From Solimonas sp. K1W22B-7 (GTDB taxonomy: Bacteria; Pseudomonadota; Gammaproteobacteria; Nevskiales; Nevskiaceae), in assembly GCF_003428335.1 (NCBI RefSeq), contig NZ_CP031704.1, forward strand, positions 62,001 to 126,000: 64,000 bases of DNA, written 5' to 3'. The position numbers were made by a program, and so were the translations under genes. The notes below the pieces were generated by a model. That model was not told where the DNA came from. It saw only the letters and a list, made by a program, of their open reading frames with translations, and ran no database searches. How positions within the stretch are numbered: the stretch's first letter is position 1; each line of letters opens with the position of its first letter. Positions 3,462 to 36,355 of this stretch are shown here, piece after piece.

Positions 3462-4028
3462 ATGAGCCGAGCCGAACCCGCCGACACCCTGGAGCAGCTG
3501 CTGCGCGCGACCGCGGCCGGCGACGCCCAGTCGTTCCGGCGGCTCTACGACGCCACCTCCTCGCATCTGTTCGGCCTGCTGATGCGTATGTTGAAGCGAC
3601 GGGACTGGGCGGAGGAAGCCTTGCAGGACTGCTACCTCAAGATCTGGCAGAAGGCCGACACCTATGCCCCTGAAAAGGGCCAGCCGCTGACCTGGCTGAT
3701 GACGGTGGCGCGGTATCGCGCCCTGGACCTGCTGCGGATCAAGCGGCCGGAGGTGGAAATGCCGGACGAGGACGAAGCGCCGCCGATGACCTTCGCCGAC
3801 GGCTCCAGCGACGACCCGCAGCTGCGGGCAGTGGAAAGCGAGGGCCTCAAACGCCTGCAGGGCTGCATGGGTGGCCTGGCGGAGGAGCAGCGGCGCAGCG
3901 TGCTGCTGGCCTACTACGAGGGGTATACCCACCAGGAGCTGGCGCAGGCGCTGAATGCGCCGCTGGGAACGGTGAAGAGCTGGGTGCGGCGCGGCTTGCA
4001 GCGCCTGCGGGAATGCCTGGACGGTTAG
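3462..4028 (+). CDS. ECF-family RNA polymerase sigma factor (SigK/RpoE-like)
   Basis: The 188-residue protein has sigma region 2 at about 25-66 (FRRLYDATSSHLFGLLMRM, WAEEALQDCYLKIWQ) and region 4 at about 138-183 (EEQRRSVLLAYYEGYTHQEL, GTVKSWVRRGLQRLRECL), the usual size and order for group 4 sigma factors. The start is the ATG at 3462 beginning MSRAEPADTLEQLL; upstream in-frame codons encode no conserved sequence. The next gene encodes its likely RskA-type anti-sigma factor, but a MITE-like element now separates them. The element's TA insertion point falls in this gene's stop codon, which would have been TAA before insertion and is now TAG. Signals and target promoters cannot be read from the sequence. 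Confidence 0.92.
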   Translation: MSRAEPADTLEQLLRATAAGDAQSFRRLYDATSSHLFGLLMRMLKRRDWAEEALQDCYLKIWQKADTYAPEKGQPLTWLMTVARYRALDLLRIKRPEVEMPDEDEAPPMTFADGSSDDPQLRAVESEGLKRLQGCMGGLAEEQRRSVLLAYYEGYTHQELAQALNAPLGTVKSWVRRGLQRLRECLDG

Positions 4029-4291
4029 GGCCTGTTAACGCTATGAACATCGCTGCGATGCCCCCGTATTTGCCGCCAGGCACGACGCGAGGAGGGAGTT
4101 TGGTGGTTCCAAGTAACCGACGAGCAACACAGCATGGCGGCAAAGACGGGGGCACCCGAAGGGCGGGACCGTTTTGGCGCATGGCGGCGTCCCGAGCCGC
4201 TTATGTACGTCTAGTACACCGCGCGTCCCGGGACATAGCCCTGCGCCAAAACGGTCTCCGTCGCAGCGATGTTCATAGCGTTAACAGGCCC
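4028..4291. mobile_element. MITE-like non-autonomous element with 31-bp perfect terminal inverted repeats
   Basis: The 264-bp segment is bounded by 31-bp perfect inverted repeats (4028-4058 and 4261-4291), which begin GGGCCTGTTAACGCTATGAA. It is flanked by a TA duplication (4026-4027 and 4292-4293). A second inner inverted repeat (GACCGTTTTGGCGCA and its complement TGCGCCAAAACGGTC) makes the interior foldable. Short frames inside show no transposase motif, so I call it non-autonomous. It sits exactly between an ECF sigma gene and its anti-sigma gene. Similar single ends occur elsewhere in this window. The mobilising transposase family is unknown; TA target duplication is compatible with IS630-like or some IS5-group enzymes. 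Confidence 0.8.
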
Positions 4292-4298
4292 TAATGGA

Positions 4299-5042
4299 GT
4301 GAAATACCAGAACGCCAAGCTGCGCCAGATGCTCGCCGCTGGGTACGTGCTCGGTACGATGCGCGGCCCTGCGCGCCGGCGCTTCGAGCGCCTGCTCAAG
4401 CAGGACCCGCTGATGCTGCGCGAGCTGCGTTACTGGGAACGGCGCCTGGGCGGCTTGCAGCACGGCTTTGCGAAGGTCAAGCCGCGCGAGGTGGTCTGGG
4501 CCGGCATCGAGCAGCAGATCAATGCGGTCAGGCGCGTGGCGCTGCCGCCGGCGCGCTCCATCGCCGGCGATCGCGGCCCGCTGAATTTCTGGCGCGGCTG
4601 GGCGGCGGTGGCCTCGCTCGCCACCGTGGGCCTGGGCTACGGCCTGTGGCTGCAGCTGCGGCAGGAGCCGCAGGTGATCGAGACCGTGCGCACCGTGCAG
4701 GTGCCGCAGCCGCAGCCCTGGGTGGCGATGCTGCAGTCCAACACGCCGGCGCAGTGGATCGTGGTGATGAAGCCCTACAGCCGCTCGCTCAAGGTCAGCG
4801 TTTCCGGCGCCTACCCGATCGACTTCCGCAGCCAGGACCTGCAGCTCTGGGTGCTGGACGACGCCGGCCAGCCGCATCCGATGGGGTTGTTGCCGCAGGG
4901 CGACAGTGCCGAGCTGCCGATGCCGGAGCTGCCGATGCCGCACAAGCCGGTGATGGCGGTCAGCGTCGAGCCCAAGGGCGGCTCGCCCACCGGCCTGCCT
5001 ACTGGCCCGGTGGTCAGTTCGGCGCCGCTGCTGCAGTTGTAG
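4299..5042 (+). CDS. RskA-type anti-sigma factor
   Basis: A membrane-anchored regulator expected to sequester the neighbouring ECF sigma factor. The N-terminal part (LRQMLAAGYVLGTMRGPARRRFERL) resembles the sigma-binding region of RskA proteins. One membrane segment follows (about residues 87-107, GWAAVASLATVGLGYGLWL), then a periplasmic domain with WIVVMKPYSRSLKVSVSG and QDLQLWVLDDAGQPHPMG, as in RskA C-termini. I choose the GTG at 4299 (MKYQNAKLRQML). Without the MITE, the sequence GGACGG of the sigma gene's 3' end would lie about 8 nt upstream as a ribosome site. After insertion, an ATG inside the right terminal repeat (4269, in frame) offers an alternative start that adds ten element-encoded residues. 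Expression coupling to the sigma gene is therefore probably altered. Confidence 0.83.
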   Translation: MKYQNAKLRQMLAAGYVLGTMRGPARRRFERLLKQDPLMLRELRYWERRLGGLQHGFAKVKPREVVWAGIEQQINAVRRVALPPARSIAGDRGPLNFWRGWAAVASLATVGLGYGLWLQLRQEPQVIETVRTVQVPQPQPWVAMLQSNTPAQWIVVMKPYSRSLKVSVSGAYPIDFRSQDLQLWVLDDAGQPHPMGLLPQGDSAELPMPELPMPHKPVMAVSVEPKGGSPTGLPTGPVVSSAPLLQL

Positions 5043-6075: not shown

Positions 6076-6085
6076 GCAAGACACC

Positions 6086-6120
6086 CGTCGCAGCGACTGC
6101 CGTAGGGTGAACAGGCCCTA
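6086..6120. repeat. Solo right-end copy of the MITE terminal repeat
   Basis: This 35-bp stretch aligns without gaps to the right end of the element at 4259-4293 with about 28 identities. It starts CGTCGCAGCGA and ends GAACAGGCCCTA. The final CTA is the complement of the TAG stop codon of the hydrolase gene at 6118. No partner end is adjacent, so it is either a decayed element or an independently maintained repeat. Confidence 0.55.
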
Positions 6121-7044
6121 GCTGCCGAGCTTCTTGTCGAACCACCCCAGCAACTCCGCCGTCACCTGATCCCGGCAGATATCGTTGAGCAGTTCATGCC
6201 GCCCGCCCATCCAGATGCGCACGGCGACATCGCTGAGGCCGGCCTTGCGGTAGTGCGCTTCCAGCGCGCGCGGACCCTTCTCGCCCTGGCAGGCGGGGTC
6301 GTCGCTGCCGGCGATGATCATCACCGGCAGGTCCTTGGGGATGCGCGCCAGGCGTTTCTGGTCGCCGAGCCGGCCGCCCATCTCCATCAGCGAGATCCAC
6401 AGCGAGTTGCTGCAGCGGAAGCCGCAGCGCGCATCGCGGATGTACAGGTCCACCTCGGCCGGGTCGCGCGACAGCCATTCGAAGTCGGTGCGCGCCGGCT
6501 TGAAGCGGCGGTTGAAGTCCTTGAAGGTGAGTTGCTCGGCCAGCGCACTGCGATGGCGGCCGCCGAACCACAGCGCCTCGACGCGCAACAGGTTGAGGCC
6601 GATCGTCCGCAGCGGGCCGAGGTCGCCGCTGGTGGCGGAGAACAGCGCGCCGGCCAGGCCCTGGCCGTGCTCCACGACATAGTCCTGCAACAGGAAGGAG
6701 CCCATGCTGTGGCCGAGCATGAAATGCGGCAGGTGCTGCAGTTCCTGTTCGGCCAGTGCCCGCACGCTGTTGATCGCCGACAGCGTCTTGCCCCAGCCGC
6801 CGCGATCGGCGAAATGCCCCAGCTCGTCGGCCGCGCGCACGCTGCGGCCATGGCCGGGCAGGTCCTGCGCATAGACCGCGTAGCCCGCCGACGCCAGCGC
6901 CTGCGCCAGGCGGTCGTAGCGCGCGCCGTGCTCGGCCATGCCGTGCACCACCTGGACCACGCCGCGGGCACGAGCCGGCAGCCAGCGATGGACGCAGGCA
7001 TGACTACCGTCGGCTAGGCGGTGCTGGAAGGTTTCGCGTTTCAT
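6118..7044 (-). CDS. Alpha/beta hydrolase, monoacylglycerol-lipase type
   Basis: The 308-residue protein starts MKRETFQHRLADGS at an ATG at 7044; a longer in-frame start at 7128 lacks conserved residues. It has VVHGMAEHGARYDRLAQAL (oxyanion region), DLPGHGRS, the nucleophile elbow GHSMGS (Ser113), the acid region AGSDDPACQGEKG and the histidine region GGRHELLND. This is the pattern of serine hydrolases in the lysophospholipase/monoglyceride lipase group (PldB-like). Probable substrates are mono- or lysolipids, by inference. There is no signal peptide, so it is cytoplasmic. Its TAG stop abuts a MITE-like repeat end. Confidence 0.88.
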   Translation of the reverse strand: MKRETFQHRLADGSHACVHRWLPARARGVVQVVHGMAEHGARYDRLAQALASAGYAVYAQDLPGHGRSVRAADELGHFADRGGWGKTLSAINSVRALAEQELQHLPHFMLGHSMGSFLLQDYVVEHGQGLAGALFSATSGDLGPLRTIGLNLLRVEALWFGGRHRSALAEQLTFKDFNRRFKPARTDFEWLSRDPAEVDLYIRDARCGFRCSNSLWISLMEMGGRLGDQKRLARIPKDLPVMIIAGSDDPACQGEKGPRALEAHYRKAGLSDVAVRIWMGGRHELLNDICRDQVTAELLGWFDKKLGS

Positions 7045-7113: not shown

Positions 7114-7136
7114 TTGCCATGGCGTCAACAGGCCCT
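7114..7136. repeat. Short MITE-end-like sequence
   Basis: ATGGCGTCAACAGGCCCTAA closely resembles the outermost part of the right terminal repeat of the element at 4028-4291, with three or so mismatches over 22 bp. It is in the same orientation as the copy at 6086-6120, and it lies just upstream of the phosphoesterase start. Confidence 0.45.
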
Positions 7137-7147
7137 AAGCTGGGCTC

Positions 7148-25897: not shown

Positions 25898-27137
25898 GCA
25901 GGCGCTTCCTCACGATGCAGAATTGGGCCGGCTGGAACAGCGGCGCGCCGGCCTCCGCCGGCAACCCGGCCGGCCGCTCCAGGCCCGGCAGGATCGCGCG
26001 CAGCCACAGGCCACCGGACCCACCGCGGCGCAGTTCCAGCTCGCCGCCGACCCCGGCCAGGCGTTCGCGCATGCCGCGGATGCCGTTGCCCTCGGGCCGG
26101 GCGCCCTGCCAGCCGCGGCCGTCGTCCTCCACCTCCAGCACCAGCCCGGCCGGCTCGAAGCCCAGGCGCAGCCGCACGGTCCAGGCGCCGCTGTGGCGCA
26201 GCACGTTGGTCATCGCCTCCTGGGCGCAACGCAGCAGGGCGTCGGCGCTGCGCATGTCCGCGATGCGCAGACCCGGTTCGATCTCGAAGGCCACCCGCGG
26301 TCGCGGCAGCCCCGGGTCCAGGGCGCGCAGGGCGCCGGGCAGGTCCACGCCTTCCTCGGCGCGCAGTGCCGAGACCACGCCGCGGATGTCGGTCAGCAAC
26401 TCGTCGGCCAGGCGCAGGCTCTCCTCCAGTGCCGGGGAGCGGCGCCACAGCTCGCGGCGGTGCAGCGCCAGCTGCATCTTCAGCGCGGTGAGCTTGTGGC
26501 CGGCGACGTCGTGCAGTTCGCGCGACAGGCGCAGACGCTCGTCGGCGCGCGCGCCCTCGTCCAGCAGCTGTCGCGTCGCCATCAGCTCGGCGTTGATGCG
26601 CACCGCGGTCAGGCCCAGGGCCTGCAGGCGCACGGCGAACATCGCGCCCACCGCCGCAAAAGCCTGGAAGCCGCACCACGCCAGCAGCAGCACCAGGCCC
26701 ATCAGGCTGTCGTGCTGCTGCGTCAGCAGCAGCGCCAGCATGAAGTCGGCAGCCAGCAGCAGTGTCGCGACCTGTTGCCTGGCATACACCAGCCCCAGCT
26801 GGCCGGCGACGATCACCAGCAGCGCCGGCACGAAATCGTTCTGTTCCATGCCCCAGCAGGCCACGAGTGCGCAGCCCAGCTGCGCCAGTATCAGTTGGCG
26901 CCGCAGCGACAGCGGACCCTCGCGATCGTCCACCAGCGCACGCGCGAGATACAGCAGCAGGAAAGCCCCCAGGCTCCCCAGGCCGACCAGCAACGGCAGG
27001 CCCGCGGCTCCGCCGGCCGGGTACTTGGCTACGGAATACACCGCAATCGCCGCCCAGGTGGCATAGGACCCGAGGTTGATCGGGTTGAGCACTCCCGCGC
27101 CGGGGGTGCGATGCAGGGAAACGGCGGGCAGGGTCAT
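25872..27137 (-). CDS. Sensor histidine kinase (DesK/NarL-partner type)
   Basis: The 421-residue membrane kinase has five or six predicted membrane segments in residues ~25-195 (for example AGLPLLVGLGSLGAFLLLYL and QLGLVYARQQVATLLLAADF). A HisKA_3 dimerisation/phosphoacceptor region follows (LRLSRELHDVAGHKLTALKM; the His of ELHD is the phosphoacceptor), then a HATPase_c domain (CAQEAMTNVLRHSGAW, DDGRGWQG, GNGIRGMRERLAGVGG). The C-terminal ~25 residues encoded in the overlap with the regulator gene are not domain sequence. It has no large periplasmic sensor domain, so it probably senses a membrane signal, as DesK does (inference). Confidence 0.93.
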   Translation of the reverse strand: MTLPAVSLHRTPGAGVLNPINLGSYATWAAIAVYSVAKYPAGGAAGLPLLVGLGSLGAFLLLYLARALVDDREGPLSLRRQLILAQLGCALVACWGMEQNDFVPALLVIVAGQLGLVYARQQVATLLLAADFMLALLLTQQHDSLMGLVLLLAWCGFQAFAAVGAMFAVRLQALGLTAVRINAELMATRQLLDEGARADERLRLSRELHDVAGHKLTALKMQLALHRRELWRRSPALEESLRLADELLTDIRGVVSALRAEEGVDLPGALRALDPGLPRPRVAFEIEPGLRIADMRSADALLRCAQEAMTNVLRHSGAWTVRLRLGFEPAGLVLEVEDDGRGWQGARPEGNGIRGMRERLAGVGGELELRRGGSGGLWLRAILPGLERPAGLPAEAGAPLFQPAQFCIVRKRLHADDRAGG

Positions 27138-35820: not shown

Positions 35821-36323
35821 GCGAGGAAGGCTGGCGTGCCCGCCTCAAGCGGGTGGTGGTCGCGCAGCTGACGCAGGGGGTGACGCCGAAGCGCGTCGCC
35901 TTCACGCTGGCGCTGGGGGCGCTGCTCAGTGTTTTTCCGGTCTTCGGTGCGACCACCGCGTTGTGCGCGCTCGCCGCCTGGCTGTTGCGCCTGAACCAGC
36001 CGCTGATGCAGCTGCTCAATGCCGTGCTGGCGCCGGTGCATCTTCTGCTGCTGTATCCCTACTACCGCGCCGGAGAACACCTCTTCGGCCGCGAGCCGGC
36101 ACCGCTGCTGGCGGTGACCGAGCTGGCCGAGCGTTTCGCCGCCAGCCCGAAACAGTTCGTGCTGGACTACGGCATGGTCGCGGTGGGCGGCATGGTGGTG
36201 TGGCTGATCAGCGCGCTGGTGGTGATCCCGCTGCTGTATGCGGCGCTGCGGCCGGTGGTGGAGGCGGCGGCAAGGGGTGTGAAGGCGGGCCGGGGAAAGG
36301 TGCGCGGCACCACGGCCGGCTAG
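35817..36323 (+). CDS. DUF2062 membrane protein
   Basis: The 168-residue protein begins MSEEGWRARLKRVVVAQLTQ and carries the DUF2062 pattern VTPKRVAFTLALGALLSVFP-VFGATTALCALAAWLLRLNQ, followed by LLYPYYRAGEHLFG and a C-terminal helix VVWLISALVVIPLLYAALRP. DUF2062 proteins are small inner-membrane proteins of unknown function. It overlaps the previous gene by 4 bp and closes the lipid-modification operon. The stop codon TAG is directly followed by a MITE-type terminal repeat. Confidence 0.85.
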   Translation: MSEEGWRARLKRVVVAQLTQGVTPKRVAFTLALGALLSVFPVFGATTALCALAAWLLRLNQPLMQLLNAVLAPVHLLLLYPYYRAGEHLFGREPAPLLAVTELAERFAASPKQFVLDYGMVAVGGMVVWLISALVVIPLLYAALRPVVEAAARGVKAGRGKVRGTTAG

Positions 36324-36355
36324 GGCCTGTTAACACTACCGCGATCGCTGCGACC
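36323..36355. repeat. Solo left-end copy of the MITE terminal repeat
   Basis: GGGCCTGTTAAC is identical to the outermost 12 bp of the element at 4028, followed by a diverged stretch and then ATCGCTGCGA, again identical and in register with the element's terminal repeat. The G of the preceding TAG stop is the first base. No second end is found nearby. Confidence 0.6.

Follow-up and report, generated by a model that had tools for sequence, protein, structure and literature searches.

Results

An insertion between an ECF sigma gene and its anti-sigma gene

Within the 64,000-nucleotide stretch of Solimonas sp. K1W22B-7 that was analysed (referred to here as the window), the gene for an ECF sigma factor and the gene for its anti-sigma factor are separated by an element that is a non-autonomous, TA-duplicating, MITE-like insertion. 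The features of the locus, in window coordinates, are:

3462..4028, plus strand: ECF sigma factor gene, assumed start ATG 3462, stop TAG 4026-4028 (Pfam Sigma70_r2, E 1.7e-14; Sigma70_r4_2, E 1.8e-14)
4026..4027, no strand: left copy of the duplicated target TA (sequence, congener junctions)
4028..4291, plus strand: 264-bp MITE-like element, foldable along its whole length (sequence, BLAST, folding)
4028..4058, plus strand: 31-bp terminal inverted repeat of the left end (100% identical to 4261-4291 when reverse-complemented)
4068..4148, plus strand: hairpin module A, with the conserved bulged core (covariance model R1, 64.4 bits, E 1.3e-13 in the window)
4155..4163, plus strand: small central hairpin CCC-GAA-GGG (paired in the fold and in own-genome consensus columns 128-136)
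4169..4251, minus strand: hairpin module B, a diverged copy of module A in inverted orientation (covariance model R1, 34.5 bits, E 3e-06)
4261..4291, plus strand: right terminal inverted repeat, containing the in-frame ATG 4269-4271 (31/31 bases to the left repeat)
4292..4293, no strand: right copy of the duplicated target TA (sequence, congener junctions)
4299..5042, plus strand: anti-sigma factor gene (RskA_C), GTG start where congeners have ATG (Pfam RskA_C, E 3e-19)

A preliminary description of this DNA had reported a 264-bp element with 31-bp perfect terminal repeats and a TA duplication, all of which are borne out (31 of 31 bases agree and TA stands on both sides); the span it gave, 4026-4301, takes in the element, both TA copies and the GTG, the element proper being 4028-4291. 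The perfect match of the two ends grows to 34 bp when bases of the flanks are counted in (4025-4058 with 4261-4294). Compared with 200 shuffles, the fold of 4026-4294 has z-scores of -16.5 (DNA) and -15.7 (RNA), far beyond chance. Open frames that overlap the element encode 93 amino acids on the plus strand and 111 and 62 on the minus strand, and all cross the element's ends; they appear too short for a transposase, so the element would be one without a transposase gene.

With the element taken out, the joined flanks read GGACGGTTAATGGAGTGAAA, exactly as previously stated. They give the sigma gene a TAA stop; at the occupied site the stop is TAG, composed of the target TA and the first G of the element, which confirms the change of stop codon that had been proposed. 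Likewise, both coding frames have been kept, as claimed: the sigma protein is unchanged and the anti-sigma frame is intact. The alternative ATG said to lie in the right repeat is present at 4269, in frame with the anti-sigma GTG at 4299, and could extend the anti-sigma protein by ten residues. A terminator-like site was sought on the transcribed strand between the two genes and none was found.

An empty site is found in related genomes. In all three congeners searched, the sigma and anti-sigma genes are adjacent or overlapping with no insert: in one, the sigma stop overlaps the anti-sigma ATG, and in the other two TAG is followed four bases on by ATG, a distance also seen when the flanks of the element are joined. 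More broadly, relatives of the anti-sigma gene are present in 31 of 41 genomes searched, and at the 22 anti-sigma loci whose junctions were compared, including the one described here, the insert occurs only in the latter. At the loci of other genera the sigma-like frame ends no more than 68 bases from the start of the anti-sigma match, and these loci therefore hold no comparable insert. The comparison of related loci that the preliminary description had proposed thus yielded an uninterrupted junction in three of three congeners, and the same segment did not turn up at the related loci compared.

Copies in the same genome and in near relatives

The element is one of many. A BLAST search of its own genome (5.37 Mb) returned 57 rows, corresponding to 39 distinct places with full or partial copies once multiple rows per place and the element's matches to its own arms are merged; in the first look, 40 of 66 candidates for such copies were scored. 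From 30 fetched loci, 29 copies could be delimited, and 22 of these are exactly 264 bp long. The sequence AGGGCCTGT occurs 209 times in this genome against 53 times for the reversed control, and further ends and fragments of the element therefore exist there. From the genus to the order, 30 of 61 genomes have matches to the element, and a neighbour in the family (G036, locus L038) and a Nevskia sp. (L184) hold elements identical in sequence to each other.

Several further pieces were seen in passing. At 6076-6121 the window holds a solo right end of the same element family (GTCGCAGCGACTGCCGTAGGGTGAACAGGCCCTAG) between a DegV-family gene and an abhydrolase gene, and its TA is the source of the abhydrolase stop codon on the minus strand; an end-like piece (CCATGGCGTCAACAGGCCCTAA) lies at 7115-7138, at the 5′ end of the abhydrolase frame. 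A lone left end (GGGCCTGTTAACACTACCGCGATCGCTGCGA) at 36323-36353 continues into unrelated DNA with a REP-like GTAGGGTGC, and a weak match to the module model at 26167-26250 (18.4 bits, E 0.028 in the window) is possibly a decayed copy or chance. Longer variants of the element, 312-336 bp, occur at seven loci (L024, L026, L239, L242, L243, L244 and L245) in a survey in which 29 of 95 loci were not delimited, and the two long variants in the own genome both carry an additional segment, GCCATTGGCC..., within the apical portion of hairpin A. Two loci (L049 and L051), together with further copies in genomes G038, G045 and G048, have the same module within quite different inverted ends of the GGGAAGCACTGATT type, and copies with GGGAAGCACTGATT-type ends are numerous in one family of the order.

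Target site and stop codons

The target of the element is YTAR. TA is present on both sides of 19 of the 29 own copies, and all 19 of these read YTA...TAR; in the other 10 it is absent from one or both sides. This target accounts for the position of the element in the sigma stop codon, and the same placement recurs elsewhere. A gene ends exactly at the element in 13 of 29 own copies (15 of 30 facing gene ends), in 24 of 41 loci from other genomes of the genus and order, and in 10 of 38 loci of a cross-lineage set picked, from 68 delimited loci, for good ends and YTA...TAR flanks. These counts rest on simple purpose-made gene models, which were used because open-frame length alone is too noisy as a test for stop insertion in GC-rich DNA.

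It is informative to set these counts beside the supply of sites. With the insert removed, the window contains 57 YTAR sites, of which 19 are in stop codons, 24 are intergenic and 14 lie within genes. Stop codons thus make up 19 of the 43 sites at which an insertion would be tolerated (44%), compared with 13 of the 29 own copies (45%), and YTAR preference together with tolerance therefore explains the stop insertions. A special mechanism for targeting stop codons was considered and is rejected, since 19 of 43 tolerated sites are stops anyway.

The 69 gene models of the window, again with the insert removed, end in 31 TAG, 30 TGA and 8 TAA codons, a lead of TAG that is unexpected in GC-rich DNA, and 12 of the 24 CTAG sites fall in stop codons.

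A candidate transposase partner

Members of the IS427 group of the IS5 family use a YTAR target and duplicate the TA. An IS5-type element of 804 bp with a CTAG target, overlapping DUF4096 and DDE_Tnp_1 matches, is present in one congener (G003). Its right end, GGGCCTGTTAACACTA, agrees at 16 of 16 bases with an end of 6 of the 29 own copies and at 15 of 16 with the window copy, and its left end has 2 mismatches in 16. Among 41 genomes this element is found at full length only in G003, with short partial matches in three others, and a BLAST search with the 803-bp insertion sequence gave no match in the own genome. Searches with PF13340 and PF01609 gave no matches in the own genome (G000) or in the congener G001, and none of the three PF01609 matches in the congener G002 carries the element's ends. 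Of the 12 PF13340 loci found in 18 genomes, only that of G003 has matching ends. Across 14 element-bearing genomes of other lineages, 30 PF01609 and 11 PF13340 loci included no insertion sequence with the ends of the local element; ten of these genomes have PF01609 matches, 30 of the 44 matches were examined, and the local ends are uncertain in some, for example those of L107.

IS630 was considered separately as a partner and rejected, the three IS630-type copies in the own genome ending in TATTGAT, unlike the element.

The earlier reading of the locus as a MITE-like insertion is therefore supported by the uninterrupted congener junctions, by the many other copies and, in G003 only, by an IS5-type element with a matching end. 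Of the searches suggested along with that reading, the one for other full copies found many with the same ends in the own genome, and the one for a transposase with matching ends succeeded in part: one IS5-type element was found in a congener, and none in the own genome. The element that mobilises a MITE need not reside in the same genome, and the source may be lost. From this one element in one congener we infer the partner. We consider it probable that the insertion is a TA-duplicating transposon of the non-autonomous kind, and that the enzyme moving it is most likely an IS5/IS427-type DDE transposase.

According to this explanation, the transposase would recognise GGGCCTGTTAAC-type ends and YTAR targets and act in trans. 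The insertion itself, the restored stop codon and the conserved fold are shown by the data: in this lineage the element jumped into the sigma stop codon, where its opening G turned TAA into TAG and left the sigma protein unchanged and the anti-sigma frame downstream intact. The inserted unit consists of a long terminal stem holding two inverted bulged-hairpin modules and the small central hairpin. The effect on expression is a prediction: in the mRNA, the 34-bp perfect duplex should end four bases before the anti-sigma GTG, and the old upstream GGACGG should lie 266 nt further from the anti-sigma start, such that the duplex and the distant GGACGG would reduce translation of the anti-sigma factor relative to that of the sigma factor. 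The cut in translational coupling and the shift in basal activity of the regulon that the preliminary description put forward are likewise predictions.

Covarying arms

The arms of the element differ strongly among copies yet pair within each copy. For 59 distinct elements of 262-268 bp from the genus and order, 84 pairs are predicted, of which 80 form in 70% or more of the elements; among those 80, at least two Watson-Crick types occur in 63 and at least three in 32, a type being counted when it is present in at least two elements. Any two elements agree on average at 49% of positions in stem columns 9-22, and each pairs with itself at 94%.

Two processes might maintain such pairing: selection on a folded strand, or template switching from arm to arm. 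If the strand were RNA, the element might be a domesticated device acting between genes (an RNase III site or an attenuator, for example), and its stable fold as RNA agrees with this. Against this, G-U and A-C mismatches occur about equally in the 59 elements (78 versus 64, p 0.28) and, in 15 own copies, on the strand that is transcribed (11 versus 13); selection on one RNA strand is therefore not favoured. The insertion site, furthermore, is not conserved among the congeners. Near-equal G-U and A-C counts are what would be seen if the arms were paired by mutation, that is, if template switching in quasi-palindromes copied one arm onto the other with no function needed. Changes that affect blocks on both arms at once point the same way, as does module B of the window element, which by eye is paired where other modules are mismatched.

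A bulged hairpin module with a near-constant core

Inside the terminal stem, the window element matches model R1 twice in inverted orientation; it is therefore a two-module form, and elements of about 160 bp are the one-module form. Many 264-bp relatives have the same inverted pair, and element lengths recur near 160 bp and near 264-268 bp. In 30 diverse members, the module comprises a lower stem, a bulge AAG, three GCG/CGC pairs, a bulge CAA, an upper stem and an apical hairpin. The commonest letters of the upper stem form tandem G.A mismatches, and in other members these positions are Watson-Crick.

How these rows were chosen bears on what they can say. R1 is built from 30 rows thinned from 102 that match a letter pattern containing most of the core and have flanks paired at 7 or more of 10 positions, with the inner stems unfiltered; part of the core invariance in this alignment (A1) is thus imposed by the choice of rows, and the outer stem leans toward pairing. 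Its covariation score of 0.608, against 0.144 when shuffled and at most 0.182 when slid, is likewise to be read with the knowledge that picking favoured the core letters and the outer stem. The core was accordingly counted in a second alignment of 134 rows fitted to R1 (A2), using the 68 rows that match neither picking pattern yet are found by R1. In these, the best core columns hold one letter in 64-66 of 68 rows, the weaker core columns in 44-61 and the stem columns in 27-56.

The module is widely distributed. The pattern GGCAAGGCGCGAGGAG-N18-30-CGACGAGCAACGC matches at least 120 stretches in GTDB genomes. The isolates among the 80 matches listed belong to Massilia, Sphingomonas, Pseudomonas, Polaromonas, Ottowia and Alloalcanivorax. 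The metagenome assemblies among the matches listed are titled Acidobacteria, Verrucomicrobiota, Planctomycetota, Kofleriaceae, Desulfobacterales, Actinomycetota and others; all records listed from outside the Pseudomonadota are metagenome assemblies and could be misbinned, as a 'Klebsiella' metagenome record (L145, L146) probably is. Within the phylum, 78 of 299 sampled genomes have an R1 match to the module with E no higher than 1e-5, a lower bound, as at most 15 candidates per genome were scored.

The module matches lie in elements with very different ends. TA-flanked inverted pairs delimited 68 of 123 exact motif matches, the other 55 giving no such pair, and in 51 of the 68 the left TA is preceded by C or T and in 50 the right TA is followed by A or G, although some of the 68 pairs kept are inner repeats and not true ends. 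Plasmid and phage collections gave no match, and Rfam gave nothing at the gathering score in 12 loci. Literature searches with the module letters and for the element class, to which subscription papers, figures and supplements were out of reach, found no description; the letters themselves occur in ten papers whose titles suggest unrelated subjects and in which they are probably part of primers. The hairpin elements thus apparently form a large, undescribed class present in many bacterial groups.

Four matches below the Rfam gathering score at 3900-4450 of the window, to eukaryotic and viral families, were taken as chance.

What keeps the fold

The wider alignment gives the two accounts of pairing a different test. 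Over 16 variable-stem pairs, the cross-lineage modules show 87 G-U against 23 A-C mismatches, and at a further apical pair outside these 16, G-U is the commonest combination (67 of 132 rows); together with bulge letters that are conserved while the stems are rewritten, this favours a folded RNA. Against it, 27 of the 87 G-U fall at a single T.G pair, and the alignment is itself fitted to the model. Weighing these counts with those from the 59 elements, we regard selection on folded RNA, with the element as a domesticated device, as unlikely. Template switching we consider a possibility, at somewhat less than an even chance: it leaves unexplained a bulged core that stays nearly constant (64-66 of 68 rows in the best columns) where the stems differ. 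Between the two processes, it is selection alone that explains why a mismatched core is conserved.

A folded, strand-symmetric design would also be explained if the element moved as single-stranded DNA through a Y1/HUH transposase of the RAYT or TIRYT kind. Y1_Tnp genes are present in 18 of 21 element-bearing genomes, with 11 matches in the own genome, and Y1 genes flanked by terminal inverted repeats have been described, also in Acidobacteria (PMC3733652). Nevertheless, 43 Y1 loci, made up of all 11 own matches and part of those in other genomes, include none with the module by the model, and one (L335) matched the loose letter pattern only. In these 43 loci, neither the arrangement expected of REP/REPIN (the same repeat flanking a Y1 gene; the ends differ) nor that expected of a TIRtron/TIRYT (ends in common with inverted repeats around a Y1 gene) was found, save for a locus (L368) with GGGCCTGT on both sides, 2 kb apart and without TA, that we take as chance. 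The other inverted repeats at Y1 loci look, by eye, mostly like REP or GGGG-type ends, and the TA duplication points to a DDE enzyme. Movement by a Y1/HUH enzyme is therefore very improbable in our judgement.

Among the Y1_Tnp loci of the own genome (L332, L351 and L359-L365), several are flanked by GTAG-REP-like or AAAAGGGGACAG-type inverted repeats.

Discussion

It is worth considering how this element relates to repeats already known from bacteria. RUP, NEMIS and ERIC carry a TA duplication and have been described within one genus or a few. They are bacterial MITEs (PMC3733652; review PMC10969869) and resemble this element by description in being short, non-coding, multi-copy sequences with inverted ends and foldable transcripts that lie near genes. 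The difference, also by description, is that here one hairpin core is found across many taxa within unrelated ends and rewritten stems. The class is thus placed as a variant of the MITE, set apart by description from RUP, NEMIS and ERIC. MITEs derived from IS5/IS427 offer a second likeness, in the YTAR target with TA duplication and in the 16 end bases common to the G003 IS5-type element and 6 of 29 own copies; they differ in that neither the G003 insertion sequence nor an IS5-type transposase was found in the own genome.

REP/REPIN and TIR repeats also consist of hairpins that occur singly or as inverted pairs, and GTAG REPs often supply the TAG stop to adjoining genes (PMC3733652). In contrast, the family described here has long inverted ends and a TA duplication, measures about 160-268 bp, has other core letters and shows no module in 43 Y1 loci. 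Finally, the intergenic repeats R178 and R200 of P. fluorescens, multi-copy and of 101 and 320 bp (PMC2718517), come from a genus that contains a member of this family (L176, 268 bp, Pseudomonas); R178 and R200 may include members of the family, a comparison made by description and not by consensus letters.

The insertion event itself is ordinary; the family, structured and spread over many taxa, is not. MITEs are usually viewed as local debris of one insertion sequence. Here, in 78 of 299 sampled genomes of the phylum and also outside it, the core has outlasted the rewriting of ends and stems, and something therefore preserves the fold. We hesitate to make strong conclusions on what that may be, and tentatively suggest, as an idea with rather less than even chances, a mobile class reaching across many phyla whose functional unit would be the folded hairpin itself, in the form of single-stranded DNA or of RNA. 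Its core, CAAGG...AACGCNGC, would be read by a widespread factor and be present once per element (about 160 bp) or twice in inverted orientation (about 264 bp), and stems and ends would be free to change as long as they stay paired, borrowing any YTAR-type transposase.

For the genomes that carry them, the YTAR target brings these elements into stop codons and into the spaces between co-transcribed genes, of which the sigma/anti-sigma pair described here is an example. For the family as a whole, the persistence of the core makes two questions testable: what reads the core, and whether that reader drives its spread.
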